Shown here one piece after another: positions 15,099-58,026 of a stretch of 64,000 bases of DNA. Origin of the DNA: Sphaerolaimus hirsutus. Lineage: Eukaryota; Nematoda; Chromadorea; Monhysterida; Sphaerolaimidae. Position 1 is the first letter of the stretch. Every line of letters starts with the position of its first letter. Below the pieces are notes generated by a model. That model had not been told where the DNA came from. It was given only the letters and a program-made list of their open reading frames with translations, and made no database searches. A program made the position numbers and the translations under genes. The stretch spans positions 3,038,001 to 3,102,000 of the forward strand of contig OZ038454.1 in NCBI GenBank assembly GCA_964036195.1. The letters run 5' to 3'.

Positions 15099-15485
15099 CT
15101 GCGACAAATGTTGTGCGACAAATTGTTCGACAAGTAAAAACGAGTAAAGCTACACCGGGACTGGTGATTCAGCTGATTTACTGCATATGAATATTTTCAT
15201 ACGCAGCTGTTCAAACCTCCTGGGGGTATTGCTCGGATGTAAGGCTTCGACGGTTAATTAAAACACCCTGTGCCCGTAGTCATGTAAACCCGCGAGTTAT
15301 GTAGATCTGCCAGTCATGTATTTTTAAGGGGGGGGGGGGGGTCAGCGCGGAGCTTTACACAATTAGTGGAGTAATTACATAGCACAACCCGCAGTGGTAA
15401 TCTCCCAAAAATACATGACTGGCGGGTGCAAATGACTAGCGGGTTTATACGACTAGTAAGCCTACGTCAAATAAAAATAGCTCAC

Positions 15486-15640
15486 GAGACCCATGACAAT
15501 GCGTCGATTGGCGGCGGGCACCTGGGGCTGCTTGTCGCCGATCAAAAGCACACTCGCTTTGCTCGACTGCACGCCCGCCGCCCCCGGTTGAGTTGACGGC
15601 TCAGCCAAGTTGGCAGTGTGCCGAATCGGCGGGTGGTTCA
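15486..15640 (-). CDS. KANSL3: KANSL3-like C-terminal exon (distal copy)
   Basis: Bounded by gtcgcag and CTC/gtgagc. It reads NHPPIRHTANLAEPS to SKASVLLIGDKQPQVP and NRRIVMGL; 2 nt entry phase completes the codon left by the exon at 16440. Confidence 0.75.
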
Positions 15641-15896
15641 CTGCGACAAGTTCGAAATTGAATGTTTTTGTGAAGTTTGTAAATTGAAGACCATGCGGTT
15701 AAAAGTCGAGAAAACAAGAAATATTCAGAGAAAACCGTATTTTAAGTTACATTTTCAATTCTCTGCCGGCAATCCATGTTTACAGATAGGTTATCCAGGT
15801 AGGTATTGCTGGTCGATTTGGGGGGGGGGGGGGGGGGTTCAGGAGATAGTAGCACAAAAATTTGCCTCCAACATAAATAGATAGCTGGGCCGTTGG

Positions 15897-16335
15897 TAGG
15901 GTTCAAACGGGATCCCGATCCCGGATCCCGTGAATTCCGGGATTTAGCAGTCCCGATCCCGATCCCGAAACTTTTCAAATCCCGATCCCGAGAAACTCCA
16001 AAGTCCGGGATCCCGATCGCGGAAAAATTAGTGGAAATTATTAAAAGTGAAAAAACGACGTTTTTGCATGCAAAAATGTGAACGCAAACCCCCAGCGTTC
16101 ATTTTATGCCACGTTTCTGGCATCCAACAGTGTTTTTAGACCTTTATGTACAACTGTGGATGCCAAAACATTGGCCAAAATCTCTATCCCAAGACCCCAA
16201 TCCCGATCCCAAAAAAATGCCAATCCCGATCCCGCTCCCGTGACCCCAATCCCGGCCAATCCCGATCCCGATCCCGAAATCTCAAAAAACCAATCCCGAT
16301 CCCGATCCCGAAAAGTCAATCCCGTTTGAACCCTA
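15897..16335. mobile_element. hAT-like MITE with (CCCGAT)n interior, clean 8-bp target duplication
   Basis: Ends TAGGGTTCAAACGGGATCCC and its inverse GTTTGAACCCTA, flanked by gccgttgg on both sides (15889-15896 and 16336-16343). The duplicated locus at 27112-27125 has the uninterrupted site gccgttgg, i.e. the empty site. Interior arrays of cccgatcccgat give only artefactual frames. Confidence 0.93.
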
Positions 16336-16439
16336 GCCGTTGGGGGGAGGTTAACCTCCCCCCCTTTCCAACCCCTGCATGCTACCTCAAGGCCTACAAC
16401 TTGACACTCTACCAGAAAGTGAAAAAGCCGCCCACGCAC

Positions 16440-16570
16440 TGATCAAGGGCCTGGCGCGCGCCATGAAGTTGTGCGGCATGACGTAGGCGGCGGCGGGCAG
16501 CTCCTGCCGCGGCGGCACGGCGGCCGGCGACGGGTTCGACTTGCGCGACAGGTACACGATGCGGCCTTGT
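16440..16570 (-). CDS. KANSL3: KANSL3-like C-terminal exon (distal copy)
   Basis: After ctcctcgcag. The frame QGRIVYLSRKSNPSPAAVP to ARARPLIS is open, and the exit A plus TG of the next exon makes ATG. Its entry phase (1 nt) fits the exit of 17384-17529. Confidence 0.75.
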
Positions 16571-16812
16571 CTGCGAGGAGGGGTTGTCAGTAACTGCGGA
16601 TGTTAATAGATTGTGAAAAAACCTTGAAGGCATTGATGCTAGGAGTTAATACAACGTTTTTATTTGCGATAATTATCACTTATAACGATATTCCATTGTA
16701 TGACTATATATCGCACCGAAGAGTACCGCCACTTGTCTGCTATATCTGTATATGATGTTGACCAATAGGTAACCACATCTTCGAGCTTTAAGACATTTTA
16801 TTTTAAAAAGAA

Positions 16813-16993
16813 TCAATTTTTTAAAACGGACTCATTTAAACGTTGTTTTTCAACCGCAATTCTAGCCCGAGCTGACCGTTTGGCTTCCGCGGCTCGACTG
16901 GCAGCACCGCTGGACAAGTCAACTGGGGAAGCGGCCGCCGCTGCGCAACTGCCGCCCGCCGCTTCCGGTGTGGGGTGAAACTGTGGCGCTGTC
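16813..16993 (-). CDS. KANSL3: Alternative terminal exon, KANSL3-like (distal copy)
   Basis: After ccccccag. It reads TAPQFHPTPEAAGGSC to RIAVEKQRLNESVLKN and stops at TGA. It has the same entry phase as the exon at 16440, so it can replace it. No donor gives a compatible exit phase. Confidence 0.5.
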
Positions 16994-17383
16994 CTGGGGG
17001 GGGGATCTTGGATGGCCAATGTGGAAATTAAAACAACAAAAAAACGAGAAAGGAAAGGTTCATGGACAATCACCGCGATCGATGCGTAGACAGTGGCACT
17101 AAGCACGCACTTACCGGCGAATGTACATAATGTTCCTACGCATAAATACTAGTTTTCTGACAAAATTTTGAAATCAAATGTGTTCAAAACTGATTTATAA
17201 GTTTTCGAAAACTAGTGCGTGGAAAGCAAGAAGATAACAAATGACTGGAGAAGATTTATGTTGCGTGAATGTACACTGACAATTTGTGTGAAAAATAATT
17301 CCAAAAAGTATATTTGAAACAATCTTTTTCCGACAAAAGGCAACTCAAACAGGACACAACTCGAGCAAAACTCGGTCACGCAC

Positions 17384-17529
17384 CCCAAAATGCGGTGCAG
17401 CTCGCCCGCATCGGCGTGCACGGAGGCGCGTCTGGAACCAGCCGCCAGAACGGCCGCTGCCAGCTGCTGCTCCTCGTGCTGCGGCAGTCGGAACGGCAGC
17501 GCCGCCTGTCTGTGCTGGTTCGCCTGCAG
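17384..17529 (-). CDS. KANSL3: KANSL3-like Gln/Ala-rich exon (distal copy)
   Basis: Reads LQANQHRQAALPFRLPQHEE then LAAAVLAAGSRRASVHADAG. The acceptor ggcccag is the end of an introner; donor TTGGG/gtgcgt. Confidence 0.7.
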
Positions 17530-17695
17530 CTGGGCCAGTCCCGCACCCTGTACAGTGGCAAATGTCATGCAAAGTGTCCAAAGTCGTGGAAAATGCCCTG
17601 CAAAATGGCAACCAAGTTGCCATTTTGCAGGGCATTTTCCAGGACTTTGGACACTTTGCATGACATTTGACATTTACAGGGTCTGGGACTGGCAC
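17530..17695 (-). mobile_element. Introner: intron identical with a hairpin MITE (distal copy)
   Basis: The 166-nt intron starts gtgccagtcccagaccctgt and ends agggtgcgggactggcccag on the coding strand. Its two halves are a near-perfect inverted repeat (caaatgtcatgcaaagtgtc with its complement) folding around gttgccattttgcag. No non-element intron sequence remains. Confidence 0.88.
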
Positions 17696-17785
17696 CTGGT
17701 GCGCGTGCGACAGCGTCAGCGGCAGCGACCCGTCGCTCGTGCTGGCGGCGCGCCGCAGCGATTGCGGCCCCCCGTGCACGCTCGC
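17696..17785 (-). CDS. KANSL3: KANSL3-like Ser/Ala-rich exon (distal copy)
   Basis: Reads ASVHGGPQSLRRAASTSDGS then LPLTLSHAHQ, ending CACCAG/gtgccag. The acceptor at gagcgcag is chosen because it keeps phase 0 with the exon at 29087; the frame is open a little further upstream. Confidence 0.6.
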
Positions 17786-17949
17786 CTGCGCTCGCGTTCG
17801 GTTATTGCTACTCAAATGTCTACCGTATATCCTCGAATGAGCCCCCCTCTTGAATACCCCCTTCAAAAACTTCCCATGAAAAAATGATTCCTGGGATTCA
17901 AAAATATACGGTATTTAACGGCATCACTAATTGCGAATTTACTTACAAC

Positions 17950-26206: not shown

Positions 26207-26329
26207 TCAATCATCATCTTCCACTTCGAGTCCGCCAGCGGCAACCGGCGATGTTTTCTGTTCCGATTTTGCGTCCGTGCTCCCTTGAGTATCCAGTTTT
26301 GCATTGGGCGTTTTCGAACCCGCCGGCGG
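26207..26329 (-). CDS. KANSL3: KANSL3-like terminal coding exon, proximal copy
   Basis: Identical in length and frame to 14976-15098: PPAGSKTPNAKLDTQ to EVEDDD and TGA. Confidence 0.75.
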   Translation of the reverse strand, partial: PPAGSKTPNAKLDTQGSTDAKSEQKTSPVAAGGLEVEDDD

Positions 26330-26715
26330 CTGCGACAAATGTTTTGTGACAAATTGTTCGACAAGTAAAAACGAGTAAAGCTACACCGGGACTGGTGATT
26401 CAGCTGATTTACTGCATATGAATATTTTCATACGCAGCTGTTCAAACCTCCTGGGGGTATTGCTCGGATGTGAGGCTTCGACGGTTAATTAAAACACCAT
26501 GTGCCCGTAGTCATGTAAACCCGCGAGTTATGTAGATCTGCCAGTCATGTATTTTTAAGGGGGGGGGGGGGGTCAGCGCGGAGCTTTACACAATTAGTGG
26601 AGTAATTACATAGCACAACCCGCAGTGGTAATCTCCCAAAAATACATGACTGGCGGGTGCAAATGACTAGCGGGTTTACACGACTAGTAAGCCTACGTCA
26701 ACAAAAACAACTCAC

Positions 26716-26870
26716 GAGACCCATGACAATGCGTCGATTGGCGGCGGGCGCCTGGGGGTGCTTGTCGCCGATCAAAAGCACGCTCGCTTTGCTCGACTGC
26801 ACGCACGCCGCACCCGGTTGAGTTGACGTATCAGCCAAGTTGGCAGTGTGCCGAATCGGCGGGTGGTTCA
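26716..26870 (-). CDS. KANSL3: KANSL3-like C-terminal exon (proximal copy)
   Basis: NHPPIRHTANLADTSTQ to NRRIVMGL. A few substitutions against the distal copy (for example LADTS versus LAEPS), frame intact. Confidence 0.75.
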
Positions 26871-27218
26871 CTGCGACAAGTTCGAAATTGAATGTTTTTG
26901 TGAGGTTTGTAAATTGAGGACCATGCGGTTAAAAGTCGAGAAAATTAGAAATATTCAGAGAAAACCGTATTTTAAGTTTCATTTTCAATTCTCTGCCGGC
27001 AATGCATGTTTACAGATAGGTTATCCAGGTAGGTATTGCTGGTCGATTGGGGGGGGGGGGGGGTTCAGGAGATAGTAGCTAAAAAATTTGCCTCCAACAT
27101 AAATAGATAGCTGGGCCGTTGGGGGGAGGTTAACCCCCCCCCCTTTCCAACCCCTGCAAGCTACCTCAAGGCCTACAACTTGACACTCTACCAGAAAGTG
27201 AAAAAGCCGCCCACGCAC

Positions 27219-27349
27219 TGATCAAGGGCCTGGCGCGCGCCATGAAGTTGTGCGGCATGACGTAGGCGGCGGCGGGCAGCTCCTGCCGCGGCGGCACGGC
27301 GGCCGGCGACGGGTTCGACTTGCGCGACAGGTACACGATGCGGCCTTGT
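27219..27349 (-). CDS. KANSL3: KANSL3-like C-terminal exon (proximal copy)
   Basis: QGRIVYLSRKSNPSPAAVP frame; same boundaries and phases as 16440-16570. Confidence 0.75.
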
Positions 27350-27591
27350 CTGCGAGGAGGGGTTGTTAGTAGCTGCGGATGTTTATAGATTGTGAAAAAA
27401 CCTTGAAGGCATTGATGCTAGGAGTTAATACAACGTTTTTATTTGAGATAATTATCACTTATAACGATATTCCATTGTATGACTATATATCACACCGAAG
27501 AGTACCGCCACTTGTCTGCTATATCTGTATATGATGTTGACCAATAGGTAACCACATCTTCGAGCTTTAAAAGATTTTATTTTAAACAGAA

Positions 27592-27772
27592 TCAGTTTTT
27601 TAAAAGGGACTCATTTAAACGTTGTTTTTCAACCGCAATTCTAGCCCGAGCTGACCGTTTGGCTTCTGCGGCTCGACTGGCAGCACCGCTGGACAAGTCA
27701 ACTGGGGAAGCGGCCGCCGCTGCGCAACTGCCGCCCGCCGCTTCCGGTGTGGGGTGAAACTGCGGCGCTGTC
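27592..27772 (-). CDS. KANSL3: Alternative terminal exon, KANSL3-like (proximal copy)
   Basis: TAPQFHPTPEAAGGSC to RLNESLLKN and TGA, 181 nt as in the distal copy with one Val/Leu change near the end. Confidence 0.5.
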
Positions 27773-28165
27773 CTGGGGGGGGGCGCTTTGGATGGCGAAT
27801 GTGGAAATTCAAACAACAAAAAAACGAGAAAGGAAAGGTTCATAGACAATCACCGCGATCGATGCGTAGACAGTGGCACTACGCACGCACTTACCGGCGA
27901 ATGTACATACCTAATGTTCCTACGCATAAATACTAGTTTTCTGACAAAATTTTGAAATCAAATGTGTTCAAAACTTTTCAAAGTTTTCGAAAACTAGTGC
28001 GTGGAAAGCAAGAAGATAACAAATGACTGGAGAAGATTTATGTTGCGTGAATGTACACTGACAATTTGTGTAAAAAATAATTCCAAAAAGTATATTTGAA
28101 AAAATCTTTTTCCGACAAAAGGCAACTCAAACAGGACACAACTCGAGCAAAACTCGGTCACCCAC

Positions 28166-28311
28166 CCCAAAATACGGTGCACTTCACCCGCATCAGCGTG
28201 CACACTGGCGCGTCTGGAACCAGCCGCCAGAACGGCCGCTGCCAGCTGCTGCTCCTCGTGCTGCGGCAGTCGGAACGGCAGCGCCGCCTGTCTGTGCTGG
28301 TTCGCCTGCAG
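28166..28311 (-). CDS. KANSL3: KANSL3-like Gln/Ala-rich exon (proximal copy)
   Basis: LQANQHRQAALPFRLPQHEE frame, ending TTGGG/gtgggt; 146 nt as in the distal copy. Confidence 0.7.
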
Positions 28312-28476
28312 CTGGGCCAGTCCCGCACCCTGTACAATGGCAAATGTCATGCAAAGTGTCCAAAGTCGTGGAAAATGCCCTGCAAAATGGCGACCAAGTT
28401 GTCATTTTGCAGGGCATTTTCCAGGACTTTGGACATTTGCATGACATTTGACATTTACAGGGTCTGGGACTGGCAC
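28312..28476 (-). mobile_element. Introner: intron identical with a hairpin MITE (proximal copy)
   Basis: gtgccagtcccagaccctgt to agggtgcgggactggcccag on the coding strand, 165 nt, near-perfect hairpin. Confidence 0.88.
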
Positions 28477-28566
28477 CTGGTGCGCGTGCGACAGCGTCAG
28501 CGGCAGCGACCCGTCGCTCGAGCTGGCGGCGCGCCGCAGCGATTGCGGCCCCCCGTGCACGCTCGC
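28477..28566 (-). CDS. KANSL3: KANSL3-like Ser/Ala-rich exon (proximal copy)
   Basis: ASVHGGPQSLRRAASSSDGS frame; phase 0 entry fits the exon at 29087. The acceptor position is less certain than the donor. Confidence 0.6.
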
Positions 28567-28849
28567 CTGCGCTGGCGTTCGGTTATTGAGACTCAAATGT
28601 CTACCGTATTTATATCCTCGAATGAGCCCCCCTCTTGAATACCCCCTTCAAAAACTTCCCATGAAAAAATGATTCCTGGGATTCAAAAATATATGGTATT
28701 TAATGGGTAAACAGCAATGTCAATGAAAATGTCAAATGTCAAGCAATGTCTAATCGAGTAACGAGCATTAATCGAGTACCGAGTTCAATTTTTATTTTAT
28801 TTTTCATGACATTTTATGACTTTTGACATTTTACAGGACTAGGACCCAG

Positions 28850-32481: not shown

Positions 32482-32695
32482 CTGCGCCTTCCTCAACATA
32501 ACGGCCAGGGGGCAGTCCCACACCCTGTAAAATGCCCTGTAAAATGTCAAATGACATGCAAAGTGTCTAGTCATGTAAAATTCCCTGCAAAATGGCCCCT
32601 CTGTTGCCATTTTGCAAGGCATTTTCCATGACTTTTGACACTTTGCAAGACATTTGACATTTGACAGAGCATTTTCCAGGGTGCGGGACTGGCAC
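32482..32695 (-). mobile_element. Introner-containing intron
   Basis: Starts gtgccagtcccgcaccctgg at the donor and carries the matching end agggtgtgggactgcccc near the acceptor. The hairp arms are tgtcaaatgtcttgcaaagt and its complement. About 26 bp lie between the element end and the acceptor. Confidence 0.8.
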
Positions 32696-39871: not shown

Positions 39872-40884
39872 TAGGGTTGGAAAAAAACGTTTTTTTAACG
39901 CCATGTTTTTATTTTTAAAAAACGTTGTTGTTTTACGTCATGTTTTTAAAAAAAAGACGTTTTTTAATATAAAAAACGTTTTTTAAAAGCTCCCATATAA
40001 ACTGCCGGTCAATATAAACTGGCTATCGCTAAATTTTTTTCTCAAAAGTTTGTAGTTCGATCCAGGAAGGGAGTTCGGCCAAGGTGTATTTTTGGATAGC
40101 CCTAACATTTGTTTACACGCACCCCCGGGGGGACCCCTGTGGCTGCGGGGGTGCAGCCACAGGGGTCCCCCCGGGGGTGCGTGTAAACAAATGTTAGGGC
40201 TATCCAAAAATACGAACACCTTGGCCGAACTCCCTTCCTGGATCGAATTACAAACTTTTGAAAAAAATTTGAGCGAAAGCCAGTTTATATTGACCAGCAG
40301 TTTATGTTCCTGGGTCAACATATATAGGTATATCAGACAAGTCACAATACTCTGTGATGTTATACATGACCATATAATGGCTGTGGAGCCATGGGATAGC
40401 ATTATAAGTGGTGATTTGTGTCAAAAATGTCCATTTTTTGTCGACATGTTCCTATATCACCTTATAGTCGAATGTTCGTGACTTCAAGTGAAGTTTGACA
40501 CGGAATAGTGATCAAACAAGATTATAAAAGGAGGTTGTTACTTTGGGAGTGAAGTTACACACTGTGGAGGTACATGGAAGCGCATCACCTGAATATTATA
40601 TACTACAGCAACATATGACGGCGTATTTCCCCACGGTAGCACATAGAAATGGATGCTTTGATACTAAAAATGCCACAAAACCAATGAAAACAACCACCAA
40701 TGTCAATTTGAGTGTGAAATTACGCGCTTGCGCGCAAAATTTTTGCAAAATACCTAGTGCTTAGTACTAAAAATTTCGGCCGATGTTTTTTATTCAAAAA
40801 AACGTTTCGGACCTCGCGTTTTTTTATTTAAAAAAAAACATTTTTTATAAATAAAACGTTTTAGAAAAACATCTGCCAACCCTA
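39872..40884 (+). mobile_element. hAT-like MITE, TAGGGTTGG family, with nested palindrome
   Basis: Target duplication aacccagc (39864-39871, 40885-40892). A palindromic element of about 300 bp (40008-40310) is inserted in its left half. Core frame at 40543-40764 conserved. Confidence 0.9.
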
Positions 40885-49676: not shown

Positions 49677-49859
<183 letters not shown>

Positions 49860-50147
49860 TTAAAAAAAATTTTTTTAAAGTCGTCGACAATCAATATTCG
49901 TGAATTATATATTCATAAATCTAATGCAGCAAGCAAACTTTATACTCGGCAATATAGTCTGATGTCCGCCGCACATTTGAAAAATAAAATAGGTAATTTT
50001 GATGAGTAAACTTATTGAAAATTTAACTTGAAATCTACCATATCCAATCTGAAAAAGAAATTTTTCACATTTTTACATTTATTTAAAACCATTTATTCAT
50101 AAAAATACGGTACCATTATGTCCAATAAAAAAAACACAAAAATCCAC

Positions 50148-50303
50148 CTGGCTGCCCTCGTGCTCAGTGACAATATAGCGGGGCATGGGAAATCTGTCCT
50201 TCAACAGGTCCTGTCCATCCTGTTCGGGTGCGGCGAGCAGCTGTTTGAATGCGGCATACTGCGGGTCGGCGTCGTAGCCCATGCGGCGCCACGCGGCGAT
50301 CGT
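50148..50303 (-). CDS. SEC23: SEC23 exon
   Basis: TIAAWRRMGYDADPQYAAFK to RFPMPRYIVTEHEGSQ; 52 codons, phase 0/0. Contains the highly conserved FPMPRY. Confidence 0.93.
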
Positions 50304-50319
50304 CTGAGAAGTGGGCGGA

Positions 50320-50850
50320 AACAGGGGTCTCGAATGGGGGGGGGGGGTTGGGGGGGGTTACCCCCCCCCCAAACCGCCCAGCTATCTATCTATCCCGGAG
50401 GCCGCTCAGCTATCTATCTATCCCGGAGGCAAAATTTTGGGCTACTACCCCCTAAACCCCCCCCCCCCAAATCGCCCAGCTATCTACCTATCTGGAGCGA
50501 TTTTTCAGAAACTATACCCTAATTTTCGCTCAAAATCGCTATTTTTCATACCTATATATAGATTTTCACCTCCAAAATCACTGGTTCATGCGTCTAACTG
50601 CCTATTTTCAGCTATTTTAAGTACTATATGCTCTTGTATACCCATTTTGAGCTATTTTACACCTACTTTTAGCGATTTTTCTCCCTTTTCTTCCTTCTAT
50701 GCCCCGAAAAAGCCTATATATTGAACCACCACAATCCCCCCCCCCAACCCCCCCCCCCCAGAAAATTTTTCAGCTATCTATCCCTCCGGAGGAGCGATTT
50801 GCTATCCATCCAACCACTCGGAGGGTCAAAATTCAAGATACCCCTGGGCG
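50320..50850. mobile_element. CAGGGGTCTTGAAT-type element with ctatctatc repeats
   Basis: Ends caggggtctcgaatgggggg and caaaattcaagatacccctg; interior agctatctatctatcc. Close relatives at 54384-54780 and 52060-52500. Confidence 0.65.
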
Positions 50851-51524
50851 GAAATAAAATTTAAGTGCGATTTAAGTGCAAACACATAGAACTAGTGTTG
50901 GAAAAGGCACCGGAAATCCGGAAATCTAAAAAAGTACCGGTGAAAGGGTACCGCGCTAAACCAGCATCGGTGCTATTTTTAAAAGCGCACCGGCACCGGT
51001 CCTACCTCTTAGGCGCTCCACACGGTGGTTGACGCTACTTTTTAGAAGTCGATTGAGTCAACTCAGAGTCAACTGTTTTAAGTATAACTATTTTTAATTT
51101 TTTACCTGTGTTGATTAAGAAATATTGAGAAGTCGATTGATGTAGAATGAAAGATTGACATTTTTGGATACATATTGTAAATGGCTCAGAGTCAATTGAA
51201 TTTTTGACCAGTTTGAGTTGACGCTAATTTTGGCGTCAACTAGCGTGTGTGGGGCCTTAAAGCCGAAAGGCAGATGATGTGAATAGTGATGATAGAAATG
51301 CATCGAGGTACCGCACAAGCACCAATAAATACCTCGGTGCCTTTCAATCATCACTACCCAAGTGTTATGTCAAATCTCAATAATAAAAAATTACAACTGA
51401 CGGTCTTACATTTGCATGACATGTAACATTTTTATTGGACACTTTTTCACCGAAAAATTTTTGAAAGCCCGCAACGCTGACACCGAAAAGTAGTCATCAA
51501 AAAATGACCACCAAAAAAACTCAC

Positions 51525-51699
51525 CTTTCCATGATAAATGAGCACATGGAAATAATCGTCCATGAGCAAAATCCTATCCGGCTGCAAACTGCCCGAGTCC
51601 AACATGACGGGCTCGGGGGGCCCGTTGAAGCTGTACGCGTACAGCACTGGCTGGATCATGCACATCGACTCGGCCGCCGTTTCCCCGTCCAGACAGTGC
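51525..51699 (-). CDS. SEC23: SEC23 exon
   Basis: [20 protein letters not shown] then [15 protein letters not shown] to FHVLIYHGK; conserved MIQPxLYAYSFxGPPEPV. Confidence 0.95.
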
Positions 51700-52583
51700 C
51701 TGCGAATGAGTGAATTTATCTTGTTGGTAGGGGTTCGGTTGGGGGGGCAGCTATCTATCTACCCCCGGCGCCGCGCAGCTATCTATCCATCTATTCAGAG
51801 GCAGATAAGTTAACTGCTATCCCACCACCCAAAAAAATAAACCAGCACTCTACCTATCGCTATCGGGAGCGATTTTTGAGAAGTTTTCCCTTATTTTTGC
51901 TCAAAATCACTCATTTCCATACATTTCTGCCCATTGTCACCTTCAAAATCGATATTTTTGGCTATTTAAATACATAGCTTTTCCCCTTTAAAGGCTATAT
52001 AAATACATAGCTAGTCTGAACCCAAGAAAAAGACAACTATCTATCCCTCCGGAGGATCGATTTCAGGGGTCTCCAGGATTTTGGCCCTCGCGGGGGCTGG
52101 ATAGATAGCAAATCGCTCCTCCGGAGGGATAGACAGCTGAAAAAAATTTCTGGGGGGGCTTGGGGGGGCTCGCGGGGGCAAAATATATAGGCTTTTTCAG
52201 TCCAATGAAGGCCGAAACGGGAAGAAATCGCTAATAATCGGTTGAAAGTGGCCAAAAGCAGGTTTAAAATGGCTAAAAACAGGCATATAACCATGCATTT
52301 AGCCGGAGAGCACGATTTTGAAGGTGAAAAACTATAAAAAGGTGTGAAAATTAGTGATTTTTGGCGAAAATTGGGGCAAAATTTCTCAAAAACCACTCCA
52401 GATAGATAGATAGCTGAGCGATTTTGGGGGGGGGGGTCTTTGGGGGTAGTAGCCAAAAGCAGCCCCCCCAGCCCCCCCTAGGAGACCCCTGATCTATCCA
52501 ACCCCGGGGGGGGGTTGAAAATCCTGAAGACACCTACAACCTAGAACACACTCAAATGTAGAAAAAATAAAAAAATTTACTCA

Positions 52584-52763
<180 letters not shown>

Positions 52764-53141
52764 TCATCGAAATATGGCAGAGATGGAAGAAAAATTGTAA
52801 AAAACACGTAGATGGAAATTAACTTATAGGAAAATAAATTGAATTACATCAAAATTTCCGCTTACACGCTGAGGAAAATAAAAACTGCGTATGAAAATTT
52901 GATTTGAAAATTGCGAGTTGATTTTATTCCAAAGAGAGCAAATTAGAGATTTTGCGAGTTTTCTTTGATTTATAAAAATATCCGAAAATTTCTCTGAAGT
53001 AAAATATCCGTATACTATTTTTATATTTTTATCAAAATTCCAGTAATAAAACTTTTTCTCCTTTTGTCTTGATTGACACTTGACACTTGACTTGACACTT
53101 TACAGGGCTCAGGACCGCCCCCTGAAAAAACTGGCACCCAC

Positions 53142-53220
53142 CAATCTGATCAAACTCCTATCGAGCCATCTGAGCGCGTCGCTGGTGTCCCCCTCGTTCT
53201 GCGCTCGCCAGCAAGCCATC
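53142..53220 (-). CDS. SEC23: SEC23 exon
   Basis: MACWRAQNEGDTSDALRWLD then RSLIRL. Starts directly after the introner acceptor and ends TTG/gtgggtgccag, another introner-like end. Confidence 0.93.
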
Positions 53221-53392
53221 CTGGGGGCAGTCCCAGACCCTGTAAAATGGCCTGTAAAATGTCAAATGTCATGCAAAGTGGAGAAAGTCATGGAAAATAC
53301 CCTACAGAATGGCAAACGTACGTTAACCACTTTGCAGGGTTTTACATGACTTGACATTTTACAGGGCATTTTACAGGGTCTGGGACTGGCAC
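53221..53392 (-). mobile_element. Introner: SEC23 intron identical with a MITE
   Basis: The 172-nt intron reads gtgccagtcccagaccctgt at the donor and agggtctgggactgccccca(g) at the acceptor. Both ends are the element's inverted repeats. Inside are tgtcaagtcatgtaaaaccc and its counterpart. The exons on both sides are unmistakable SEC23 in continuous phase. Confidence 0.95.
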
Positions 53393-53473
53393 CTGGCCAT
53401 CAAAACGGCAGCGCATTCTTGGTCGAACCCGTAGGCGATTTGCGCCTGTTGCGTATCCATATCTGCCCACGAT
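53393..53473 (-). CDS. SEC23: SEC23 exon
   Basis: SWADMDTQQAQIAYGFDQEC then AAVLMA; matches the family's FDQEAAAILMAR segment. Junction with exon 53142 is inside the Arg codon. Confidence 0.93.
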
Positions 53474-53614
53474 CTGTGGAGAAGCGCATCCGTGCAAATG
53501 CAATATCTGGTAAAATCCCTTACACACCAGTTGACAGTGACATTGGGTGTCAACTGGGTAGACCGGTTTCCATTCAGAATTGAGTTGGTGGATCGAAGAA
53601 CCATGTCCAAATGC

Positions 53615-54066
53615 ACAGGGCCGTATCCAGGGGGGGGGGCGGGGGGGGGCTGCAGCCCCCCCCCCCCGCCCTCCCGGGGAGAGACCTAAGATGTCCCAGA
53701 AAATGCCATTTTTCCTATACATTTTTCGATGTTTCTTAAAAATTTTGCGCGCAAGCGCGCAATTTCTTCCCCATACATTGTATTTTTAGTGGATCCGTCC
53801 CTGTAAACAAATATTCTTGAAAATGAACACATTTTTGTGACTTTCGCTGCATATTTACATCTATATAAAACGGTTCCTGGCGCTAGCGCCAACGCCAACA
53901 GCGCCATGGCGTGGCGCCTTGGTATGGCGCTAACGCCAAAACGCCTTTTCGTCCCTATATAGGGAAAAAATTTACGGGGCGGGGGGGGGGCTGAGCCCCC
54001 CCCCCTCGCCAGCCCCCGTACACAAGCAGCCCCCCCCCGCTCAAAAATCCTGGATACGTCCCTGCA
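53615..54066. mobile_element. CAGGGxCGTATCCAGG-type elements with GGGGCTGCAGCCCC palindromes
   Basis: Two overlapping G/C-rich elements with gggggggctgcagccccccc and gctgagcccccccc cores and ends cagggccgtatccagg and aaatcctggatacgtccctg. A similar one lies at 62355-62730. Confidence 0.55.
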
Positions 54067-54207
54067 AATGCACATGCCAATATAACCCGTTAATGCCGTA
54101 TGTGAACTTAAAAATCGTCCTGCGACCCGTCAACTACAATCTGAATTGACATGGAAACCAGTTGACAAGCAGTGTGTGTAGCGCCAAAATGCTCAAAATG
54201 TAAATAC

Positions 54208-54317
54208 CTGCACGTCGTGGTTACTTTGATGCGCTTCTGGCCGGACGGGTGTTGATATTGGGTGACAAATTGCAGAAAGGCCCGCCCCCCGGGCACAGAC
54301 GAGGCGGGGGTGCCGTG
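54208..54317 (-). CDS. SEC23: SEC23 exon
   Basis: HGTPASSVPGGRAFLQFVTQ then YQHPSGQKRIKVTTTCR; conserved FVTQYQHxSGQxRIxVTT. Confidence 0.95.
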
Positions 54318-55041
54318 CTGCGATGAAATTAAATGGATTGAAAATAAATAAAAATCAAAGAAAAACTGATACCTGTAGCCGCAGGGGTCTTGAATGGGGG
54401 TGGGGTTGGGGGGGGGGTTAAAACCGCCCAGCTATCTAACTATCTGAAGCGATTTTTGAAACTATACCCCAATTTCCGCTCAAAATCGCTATTTTTCATA
54501 CCTTTTTATAGATTTTCACCTCCAAAATACAAGTTTTTGTTCCCATTTACCTATTTTCAGCTATTTTTAGTACTATATGCTCTTTCACATACCCATTTTG
54601 AGCTATTTCACACCTACTTTTAGCGATTTTTTCCCTTTTCTTCCTTCTACACCCTGAAATAGCCTATATATCGAGCCACCACACCCCCCCCCCCCAATTT
54701 TTTCCCAGCATCTATCTATCCCGAAGGCCGCTCAGCTATCTATCCAACCACTCGGAGGGTCAAAATTCAAGATACCCCTGCCTGTAGGCAGTCCCGTGAA
54801 GCGTCAAATGTATTGAAAATTGTCAATCAAAATTTATTTGAAAACGATGTTTTTAACGAGCTTTTGACATTTTGCATGTCACTTGACAACTTTTTATCAC
54901 ATTTTACATGACATTTGACATTTTACATGACATTTTACATGACATTTTACATTTTACATGACATTTTACATTTTACATGACATTTGACACTCTTCAAGGT
55001 GAGGGACCACCCGCAGTACACAAATGAGGGGTAACATTTAC

Positions 55042-55187
55042 CTGCGCAGCCACTTCCAACACCACAGCCAGTGTGCTTCTTGGATTTATGGCGCACATTT
55101 TCCACTGACAAGTGCCGCCTTGACCCAGCTCCGTATCGGACACGATGTGATTTTTCACTTGACTGTTTGCGCAGTTGCCAAGTGCAC
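55042..55187 (-). CDS. SEC23: SEC23 exon
   Basis: ALGNCANSQVKNHIVSDTEL then GQGGTCQWKMCAINPRSTLA to EVAAQ; conserved GTGGTCQWK-type motif. Confidence 0.95.
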
Positions 55188-55768
55188 CTGAAAATCGAGT
55201 ATTTAGTTGACAGACGTCCATGTGGATCGATACAAAGGGCCTATATACAGTGCGTGTCAACTGGTTTCCATGTCAACTACGATGTTAGTAGACGGGCCAA
55301 GGACAATTTTCAATAGCACTTGCGGCAATGTCGGAAAGGAATTAATGTGAACGACCCTGTGCCGCTTGGCACGTAAACCCGCTTTGCAGCGTACACCTGG
55401 CAGGCACGTAATTCTACTCACTTGGCACGTACTTCCCATCCGGCAGGTATTTATCAGGCCCGTAGTGCCATTGGCGACTGGCGCTGTACATAGGAAAAGC
55501 ACCATGGCGCCTCTTACATCACTACCTGCCCGCTTGGCACAAACGCCCCGCTACGTGCCAGACAGGTCTACGTGCAAAGCGGGTAGAAATACGTGCGCAC
55601 CGTGTTTACGTTTATGCGCCAAGCGGGTTTATGTGCCAATCAAACCTACGTCCATTTGAACATGGTTCAGCGATCCACCAACTAAAATCTAAATGAAAAC
55701 CAGTCGGCCCCGTTGACAGACAATGTCATTGTCAACTAGTGCGTGTAGCGCCAAAACAAAGCACCAAC

Positions 55769-56043
55769 CCTCCAACTTGACATCCTTAGAGCACTTGACT
55801 TCCATAGTCGCATTAAAAGCCCATTTTCAAATTGCCCGCCGCATCTTTATCGAACACCCTCTGATAACTCTGCTTGAACAAAGTGCTATCAAAACTGTCA
55901 GCCATAACGACATTTCCCCCGGTCATTTGATAGCACTGCCGCATTTCGTAGATGCCGCATTGATCCAGGGCGCACGCGTATATATCCACTGTGTGGCCGT
56001 TTTTTACCGCCCGCAGAGAAAGGGAGTCGTAGAATTTCGACGC
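55769..56043 (-). CDS. SEC23: SEC23 exon with 1-bp frame break
   Basis: ASKFYDSLSLRAVKNGHTVD, IYACALDQCGIYEMRQC, DSFDSTLFKQSYQRVFDKDA, then KMGF. After KMGF the frame shifts: an extra base in the A run at 55815-55818 (plus strand) turns the expected Phe-Asn into a stop. The next frame continues ATMEVKCSKDVKLEG. The exon is 275 nt where 274 restores the phase of both neighbours. Confidence 0.93.
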
Positions 56044-56292
56044 CTGGTGAAGTGACAAAAGTGTGGTTGTAAAATGCGACGAAATGGTGTAAAAATGGCG
56101 CTATGCACCACTGGGTGTCAACTGGTTTCCATGTCAATTCAGATTTTAGTTGACGGGTCACAGGACGATATTCAAAAAGCACACGCGGCAATTTCGAACA
56201 GGACTACATATTGGCATGTTAATGGAAACCAGTCGGCCCAGTTGACACCCAATGTCACTGTCAACTAGTGTGTATAGGGTCAATGAGGGTCA

Positions 56293-56854
<562 letters not shown>

Positions 56855-56892
56855 CGCTAACTTAATAAGTAAACTTTGAAATTTGAATTCAC

Positions 56893-56959
56893 CTGGCCCG
56901 TGAGTGCAAGGCCCGCCCATAAACATCATAATTCTGGCACCGGTGTTCGGGTAACTCAC
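56893..56959 (-). CDS. SEC23: SEC23 exon
   Basis: [20 protein letters not shown] then GP; conserved [21 protein letters not shown]. Confidence 0.95.
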
Positions 56960-57037
56960 CTGAAATATTTAAGCCCATTGATATTGTAATGAAATTGATC
57001 GCGCCGCACCGTAAAAAAAATAAAAATAAAAACGAAC

Positions 57038-57113
57038 CTCCAGAAGACCGACGGCAACAGCGAGTGCGGCCCCAGTTGCTCGCAAAGAACGGTCGCCCTT
57101 GGCAGTGGGCCAA
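57038..57113 (-). CDS. SEC23: SEC23 exon
   Basis: WPTAKGDRSLRATGAALAVA then VGLLE; conserved RPLRSTGxALxxAVGLLE-type motif. Confidence 0.95.
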
Positions 57114-57331
57114 CTAAAACAGATTTTTAGTTTATCACGAACAACGAACAGTAAACCGTACCGTAAATTTTCCAGTTCTACGGTAAACGGAGCGGTACGG
57201 TAAATTTCCCAAAGTTTGTGGTACAGTTTAATATCGGTAAGACCTACCCTAGTTGCGGCAGTCGTCCAGGCATGTGCCTCGGACTGGTAAATTCGCCCAT
57301 GGAGCTTAAAAAGATGGGTGTGGGTGCCAAG

Positions 57332-57439
57332 TAGGGTTCAAACGGAATTGACTTTTCTGGATCGGAATTGGTTTTGGAATTTTTCGGGATCGGGATTGGA
57401 GTTTCTTGACCGTGATCGGAATCCCGTTCGGACCCTGAT
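57332..57439. mobile_element. Short diverged (CCCGAT)n hAT-like MITE
   Basis: tagggttcaaacggaattga to aatcccgttcggaccctga inside a SEC23 intron, with imperfect target duplication gtgccaag/tgccgaga. Confidence 0.65.
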
Positions 57440-57475
57440 GCCGAGAGGCAATACTTATCAGCCTAAAACACTCAC

Positions 57476-57732
57476 CCATCCGGCCTAATACTCTCAATCA
57501 AATCATTAATGGCCATGTCGCAATCGCTTATCGGCTGCAAGAACCTATTGCACGGCTGTTGGTGCTGCTGCTGCTGCGGGGGTGCGCCCATGGCACCCCC
57601 CTGGAGGGGTGGCCGCGCACCGGGGGGTCCAGATTGGGGCTGATTGGGTGCGGCCGCCGGAGCTCCGCCCCCGCCACCCCCGCCGCGCGACAGAATTTGT
57701 TGCACTTGTTCGCGACTGACGTCTTTGGCACC
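57476..57732 (-). CDS. SEC23: SEC23 exon with Gly/Pro/Gln-rich linker
   Basis: GAKDVSREQVQQILSRGGGG, a Gly/Ala/Pro/Gln-rich insert, then CNRFLQPISDCDMAINDLIE; the family's KDLxxxQxQxxL and NRFLQPVxxxDxxLTDLL motifs. Confidence 0.95.
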
Positions 57733-58026
57733 CTGCCAGTTTGGTGATGGGTGGTGATGGAAAAAAACGACGTTTGAAAAGACTGTTTTTAATTGAAAAA
57801 AAGGTTTTTTTCAAAGCAACCAAAAAATGAATGTTTAAAGATATAAATAAAGGGATATCAGAGAGTTGCAATACTTTGTGATGTATTTATGTACATGTGT
57901 TAAAAATATTATAATTACATGCAAAAAAACACAAATTTTTGGCTGTTTAAAAAAACGGTTTCGATGTGTATGTTGTATTTAAAAAACACGTTTTAAAAAA
58001 AATCCAGATGGGTGGCTTTTTCTCAC

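Follow-up and report, generated by a model that had tools for sequence, protein, structure and literature searches.

A 172-nt intron of a nematode SEC23 gene is very likely an introner, that is, a non-autonomous, NuwaI-like (PHIS/Harbinger) MITE with CWG target duplications that inserted as DNA and is predicted to be spliced out. It lies on the minus strand of the window, the 64-kb stretch of DNA analysed here (G000:C6:3038001-3102000 in a 348-Mb genome). One 169-nt palindromic MITE and one CAG fill positions 53221..53392 completely and, in our reading of the window, the borders of element and intron coincide exactly between two SEC23 exons. An earlier note had described this intron as a transposable element from end to end; that reading is correct, and the case extends beyond it. 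The features of the locus are as follows.

53221..53392, minus strand: predicted SEC23 introner intron of 172 nt, element plus the 3' copy of the target duplication, GT...AG; exact boundaries, split Arg codon, gapless protein match
53224..53392, minus strand: MITE of 169 nt (GTGCCAGTCCC...GGGACTGCCCC), a shorter relative of the 192-nt palindromic consensus; aligned with genomic copies, 5.9% from the consensus
53221..53223, minus strand: target duplication, 3' copy, CAG, holding the acceptor AG
53393..53395, minus strand: target duplication, 5' copy, CAG, the final three bases of the upstream exon
53393..53475, minus strand: SEC23 exon upstream of the introner (RSWADMDTQQAQIAYGFDQECAAVLMA + AG)
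53142..53220, minus strand: SEC23 exon downstream of the introner (G + MACWRAQNEGDTSDALRWLDRSLIRL)
49680..57741, minus strand: SEC23 gene, partial, with scattered exons and an extra T (frameshift) near 55816-55826

Read on the minus strand, the interval opens at 53392 with GTGCCAGTCCCAGACCCTGT and closes at 53221 with ...ACAGGGTCTGGGACTGCCCCCAG (GTGCCAGTCCCAGACCCTGTAAAATG is the start at 53392 and ...TTTTACAGGGTCTGGGACTGCCCCCAG the end at 53221); in the donor-first direction the far end of the element is GGGACTGCCCC. The exon 5' of the introner ends ...GTTTTGATGGCCAG and the exon 3' of it begins GATGGCTTGC, and the two join as GCC AG|G ATG (A R M), with the Arg codon split by the introner. Translated across the join, they match human Sec23A (E = 7.1e-157), and the alignment is gapless at the junction, pairing VLMAR|MACWRA with ILMARLAIYRA, in agreement with the earlier claim that the flanking exons are SEC23 and meet within one Arg codon. 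If retained, the interval would introduce in-frame stop codons. It folds into a single hairpin of -95.9 kcal/mol. The MITE supplies the donor GT as its opening dinucleotide, as had been supposed. The acceptor was also correctly placed in a duplicated target, since its AG lies within the duplicated CAG, but the duplication is a 3-bp CWG in a preferred CCWGG and not the 4-bp CCAG that had been proposed.

The element belongs to an abundant family. Its 20-mer terminus has 10 matches in the 64-kb window at up to 3 mismatches, against none in 100 shuffles. Across the genome, the exact 27-mer end motif CWGGTGCCASTCCCAGACCCTGTAAAA occurs in 807 + 824 = 1631 copies (reversed-pattern control, 0), and exact CTG-type 3' ends number 612 (control, 0). 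The GGGACTGG pattern given in the earlier note for a genome-wide search fits the reverse-strand reading alone. A DNA similarity search of the genome returned at least 89 matches (best 40 of 1422 candidates scored). From 42 copies, among which two pairs are the same insertion in duplicated DNA, we built a 192-nt near-palindromic consensus; 40 copies lie 4-12% from it and two old window copies 27%. The termini are inverted repeats, and the element is short, non-coding, flanked by a target duplication and high in copy number, as MITEs are. Further copies in the window, and a second subfamily, are listed below.

32506..32695, minus strand: family copy in an open coding frame (QQNVQQML|AVMLRKAQ), CTG duplication, GT...TG; no Pfam domain above cut-off at the junction
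17530..17695, minus strand: family copy in an open coding frame (LTLSHAHQ|LQANQHRQ), CAG duplication, GT...AG; no Pfam domain found
28312..28476, minus strand: same insertion as 17530-17695, in the duplicated sister segment
28849..29051, minus strand: copy of a second MITE subfamily whose ends are similar (GTGCCAGTTCC...), with a CTG duplication, outside any recognised exon

A segmental duplication links about 15100-17900 with about 26300-28600 of the window, and the introner insertion is common to both copies.

Target duplications were read in a C1 sample of 100 listed places of the 27-mer (all C1), of which 97 were fetched; the right end was found in 81, and 77 remained after repeated flanks were removed. 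With the left triplet fixed as CWG by the search pattern, left and right triplets were CAG/CAG in 32 copies, CTG/CTG in 25, CTG/CAG in 9 and CAG/CTG in 3, and 8 of the 77 had another triplet on the right. The W base was the same on both sides in 57 of the 69 copies with CWG at left and right and disagreed in 12 (p = 3.7e-8), and given this concordance the triplet is a true duplication. A C preceded the triplet in 48 of 77 copies and a G followed it in 46 of 77, i.e., CCWGG. CCAG|G is the classic proto-splice site.

Duplications of 5'-CWG-3' are the hallmark of NuwaI, a group within the PHIS superfamily of transposons (Harbinger-like) found mainly in animals (PMC4482050). The present element shares this duplication, and the transposase that moved it was probably of NuwaI type. 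A DDE transposase and a Myb/SANT ORF are present in most autonomous NuwaI candidates, whereas here a non-autonomous MITE alone was seen; the passages on NuwaI in that paper make no mention of intron formation, which we propose for the present element (PMC4482050). The transposase domain DDE_Tnp_4 has at least 163 matches in the genome (150 of 306 candidates scored), and its commonest family, read at eight loci (L125-L132), has one 17-nt match to the MITE and otherwise no similarity. No pair of MITE-type ends flanked the transposase at L133-L135, and no autonomous partner with the same ends was found in the DDE_Tnp_4 loci read (L125-L132 and L133-L135). The L125-L132 family has many near-identical matches and contains an insert of ~192 nt that is unrelated to the introner; this insert was considered as an introner candidate and rejected, having no sequence similarity to it. 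An introner-like element, with CTG on the left and CAG on the right, also sits within a Harbinger-like transposase gene (L133 4678-4875, L135 4775-4972), and by our reading removal of this element keeps the frame.

We suggest the following route to the SEC23 intron. A CWG-duplicating enzyme would mobilise the MITE as DNA, and the MITE would land in a SEC23 exon at CCAGG, duplicating CAG. The GT at the start of the element could then serve as the donor and the duplicated CAG as the acceptor, and CAG|GT...CAG| splicing by the spliceosome would take out the element with one duplication copy, restoring the old message exactly. Where the target reads CTG in the direction of the gene, the best cut would be CTG|GT...CTG|, a GT-TG intron. 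The element hairpin, by bringing the ends together, may help removal. Each such landing could yield a new intron.

Consistent with the earlier claim of an insertion into an exon, the same anatomy recurs at other copies in unrelated coding exons. To identify such copies, flanks were joined without the element and one triplet, and the resulting ORFs were compared with Pfam at the curated cut-off. On the C1 list, 54 sense and 54 antisense ORFs had 22 or more open codons on each side. Pfam was run on 28 sense ORFs (L060, L099 and L116 in an off-list frame or locus) and on 42 antisense ORFs (12 of 54 left out; L088 in another frame). A domain above cut-off spanned the junction in 8 of the 28 sense ORFs, which were partly picked by eye as coding-like, against 0 of the 42 antisense ORFs (p = 0.0003); with the untested sense ORFs counted as misses, the comparison becomes 8/54 against 0/42 (p = 0.009). 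Strand therefore matters, as it should for an introner. The spanning domains were OSCP1 (L060 and L061), Srx (L096, whose junction matches this chemoreceptor family), E1 dehydrogenase (L098), bestrophin (L152), CHGN (L071), carnitine acyltransferase (L119) and lipase (L120). L106, also sense, was below the Pfam cut-off, yet its Na/K-ATPase match crosses the junction at 4e-12. Junction-crossing Pfam matches below cut-off occurred in sense L113 (E 0.0036) and antisense L141 (E 0.005), and two further domains stop short of the junction, GDT1 in antisense L103 and AMP-binding in sense L122.

A second set, ranked by similarity, contributed 20 ORFs chosen by eye, two of them antisense. Sense ORFs with a spanning domain above cut-off were L010, L025 and L029 (CTG) and L022 and L030 (CAG); the antisense ones were L003, spanned by three residues, and L013. 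L016 sits at a domain edge, the LIM domain of L021 stops before the junction, and the rest had nothing above cut-off. We also scored the 102 loci of the C1 and similarity-ranked sets together with a codon model started from SEC23 codons. It called 31 loci sense in one frame, 3 sense with a shift, 7 antisense in one frame, 2 antisense with a shift and 45 non-coding, and left 14 without a call. All 7 antisense in-frame calls were CTG, read in the donor-first direction, and we think several of them are wrong (L009 and L015 are better in sense, and L092 has a stop). A first codon score, superseded by this model, had picked out 19 loci whose two flanks each looked coding at the lowest threshold; in 14 the flanks shared a frame, and these 14 were all sense, 11 CAG and 3 CTG.

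At the protein level, the joins at introner junctions are gapless in SEC23, BCKDHA, bestrophin and Na/K-ATPase, and the original message thus appears restored after an insertion into an exon. The same element lies, over its full length, between unrelated coding exons at different loci; as is characteristic of introners, many introns share their sequence up to the splice borders. The richest case is the 6 kb around L098, at G000:C1:8332400-8338400, where a branched-chain keto-acid dehydrogenase alpha (BCKDHA) gene holds four of them. The sense copies comprise two TG-ended ones (MTNL|GEEA and HRG|WWDD) and one AG-ended one (ARA, split R, QMAA); the antisense copy (copy 2) has CAG on the coding strand (KGRQ|MPVHYG). 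With exon borders set by homology, the joined translation matches residues 16-400 of human BCKDHA (385 residues; 523 bits, E = 3.4e-156), and all four junctions are gapless, with single-residue gaps a few residues from the second and third. In one ordinary intron of this gene, which follows NFSATLK at about 1667-2040 of the L153 reverse complement, an obvious GT donor is missing, perhaps a sign that other introns are non-canonical too.

The SEC23 introner itself has a CAG 3' end. Since the target is CWG, about half of all insertions offer CTG instead. Among the eight sense cases of the C1 sample and L106, the 3' end was CTG in L060, L096, L098 and L152 and CAG in L061, L071, L106, L119 and L120 (in L071 and L120 the exon side is CTG). 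CTG-ended sense copies in conserved exons are about as frequent as CAG-ended ones. Either the species splices GT-TG introns or the TG copies are removed in some unseen way. Because conserved genes carry them, we think it probable that the CTG-duplication copies in such genes are removed; the cut would fall at the same place, giving GT...TG introns. AG-independent splicing exists in C. elegans. On the broadest reading, to which we give an even chance, a single CWG-targeting family has produced introns across this nematode genome, about half of them TG-ended from CTG targets, with AG dispensable; as part of that reading, introners would number in the hundreds if the C1 sample is typical.

The main alternative is that CTG sense copies are not spliced at TG, being splicing failures in broken or dispensable genes or cut elsewhere, and that only CAG copies are real introns. 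We regard this as possible, though somewhat doubtful. AG is near-universal at 3' splice sites, and several CTG cases fall in large gene families (chemoreceptor L096, GPCR L025, TIL L010). Against it stand seven CTG loci with spanning domains above cut-off (L010, L025, L029, L060, L096, L098 and L152) and, by alignment, BCKDHA copy 1; the gapless junctions of BCKDHA (MTNL|GEE and HRG|WWDD) and bestrophin; and OSCP1 at G000:C1:3590600-3595100, which holds one AG-ended and one TG-ended copy, both in conserved sequence. Nor is TG depleted where coding sequence is interrupted: codon-model 3' ends were 17 CAG, 13 CTG and 1 other among sense-coding loci and 21 CAG, 17 CTG and 7 other among non-coding loci (CAG vs CTG, p = 1.0). 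Cutting elsewhere would mostly cost the frame. It counts against our main reading that the donor of the SEC23 introner (GTGCCA) and its acceptor context (GACTGCCCCCAG) look weak by nematode standards and that stronger-looking internal sites, GTAAAA and TTTTACAG, are present. Of the 10 CTG-ended loci examined, however, 9 have an internal TTTTACAG acceptor, and at 8 of these its use would shift the frame, leaving 19 or 31 nt; L152 has none, and in L006, in favour of the alternative, the frame would be kept (18 or 30 nt left). Likewise, the first AG of the downstream exon is out of frame in 8 of 10 loci; it is in frame in L060 (18 nt) and L096 (60 nt), where its use would lose residues.

Excision of the element from DNA rather than RNA, IES-like or by somatic transposon excision, would make splice signals irrelevant. 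What it removes would always be the element with one duplication copy, which fits the CTG copies as well as the antisense copies in conserved exons (L003, L013 and BCKDHA copy 2), at which a plain GT-AG reading from the element ends fails. Excision should ignore strand, which the 8/28 sense against 0/42 antisense cases do not. All three antisense cases, moreover, have CAG at the coding-strand 3' end, as an AG acceptor paired with the internal GTAAAA donor needs; by our reading, such splicing would add 18 nt in frame. DNA excision is therefore unlikely.

We consider it very unlikely that an old, ordinary SEC23 intron was later hit by a MITE. MITEs do land in introns, and by eye a related copy lies within a longer SEC23 intron (54787-55000); at SEC23 and the coding loci read, though, element and duplication fill the whole space between the exons, and every boundary coincides with an element end. 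Absence of the intron in relatives is visible as gapless proteins alone, at the protein level. Reverse splicing, the RNA-based mode of spread proposed for fungal introner-like elements, would directly explain the sense bias but is highly improbable given duplications that follow the target (W base 57/69), inverted-repeat termini and 45 of 102 loci called non-coding.

Insertion of a DNA element followed by splicing, the reading we prefer, has established parallels. Introners whose element and duplication share the splice sites are known, e.g., from Micromonas, Aureococcus, Symbiodinium and Chrysochromulina; among animals and land plants they occurred in two groups alone, both animals, and the word nematode is absent from the main text of that study (PMC9860276). 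Like the present family, those introners recur as similar introns in many genes and reach to the splice sites, of which the element supplies one and the duplication the other, and message length is unchanged in most families; unlike them, the present family has a nematode host and a CWG duplication that gives TG as well as AG 3' ends (PMC9860276). A literature search (titles and abstract starts) found no nematode introner. A later introner survey by the authors of PMC9860276, which was not among the titles listed, might include the present lineage. Introners with inverted repeats and target duplications were reportedly described by Huff in 2016, and work on Fritillaria is said to have found non-canonical introns in a larvacean. 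The passages on introners in PMC9169325 report none in nematodes.

Non-canonical ends have precedents too. Introners of the dinoflagellate Amoebophrya have 3-5 nt direct repeats at exon borders, hairpin inverted repeats and many non-canonical ends (PMC7789003). The present family shares short direct repeats at exon borders, hairpin-forming inverted repeats and non-canonical ends, but most non-canonical introns in Amoebophrya are AG-A(N) and lack a family-specific inverted repeat, whereas here a single family starts with GT and ends with AG or TG (PMC7789003). In human U2 introns, TG 3' splice sites are alternative sites in 36 genes (PMC2374985); here TG would be the sole 3' end. Larvacean tunicates, likewise animals with non-canonical introns, have many non-GT/AG introns that, according to the authors, could in part stem from introner transposons with weak splice sites; phylum and splice signals differ from ours, and U12 snRNAs are lost in both larvaceans and nematodes (PMC13326754). 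The kind of introner is already known; what looks new is its host group, its transposon group and the TG 3' end.

The origin of new introns is an old open question, to which introners, though rare in animals, are a well-supported answer. The animal genome studied here seems to record intron gain by one family, with copies 4-12% from their consensus sitting in conserved genes, and these genes hold both splice-competent (CAG) and apparently incompetent (CTG) versions. This raises the questions of whether a target duplication alone is sufficient for a working intron and whether AG is truly required at the 3' end. If the broad reading is true, a fixed GT, perhaps with help from the hairpin, suffices, and the target choice of the transposon, not selection, sets the 3' dinucleotide. 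As the CWG target in its CCAG|G form equals the proto-splice site, the target choice of the transposase could also explain intron-position bias.

The SEC23 gene of the window is nematode in character. Among the matches listed from a large protein set, the first nine are eight named nematode SEC23s and one unnamed protein (59-67% identity), and the tenth is oyster. In a midpoint-rooted tree of 19 rows, the window protein falls among most nematodes on a long branch, with Romanomermis, also a nematode, placed elsewhere. An aquatic protist such as Paulinella was considered as host and rejected, given the grouping of SEC23 with nematodes and the match of an L096 junction to the Srx chemoreceptors. 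A second SEC23 gene 49 kb away (L031, G000:C6:3138000-3147000), read over 9 kb with its C-terminal exons outside that range, has the same introner, 92% identical, which is kept in both genes. The two genes differ at 6 of 566 nt across five coding segments of equal length; aligned stretches including introns are 91-94% identical, the introns differ by indels, and other parts are unalignable. In a sixth exon, the window copy carries an extra T near 55816-55826, which shifts the frame, plus a few substitutions, and the frame is intact in that exon of the second gene. This frameshift counts against the introner reading; it could stem from an error in the assembly, a haplotype or decay of the window copy.

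Other repeats, marked by long runs of G or C, occur within and near the SEC23 introns (53620-54020, 52120-52480 and 54390-54760). No Rfam family reached its gathering score in 10800-64000 of the window. A perfect 61-nt inverted repeat with a 6-nt loop lies within a longer palindrome at 40036-40267. From its ORFs, the segment 941-10798 looks like a Polinton/Maverick or a related element, with a 1531-aa polymerase-like ORF, a P-loop ORF and a dUTPase-like ORF.
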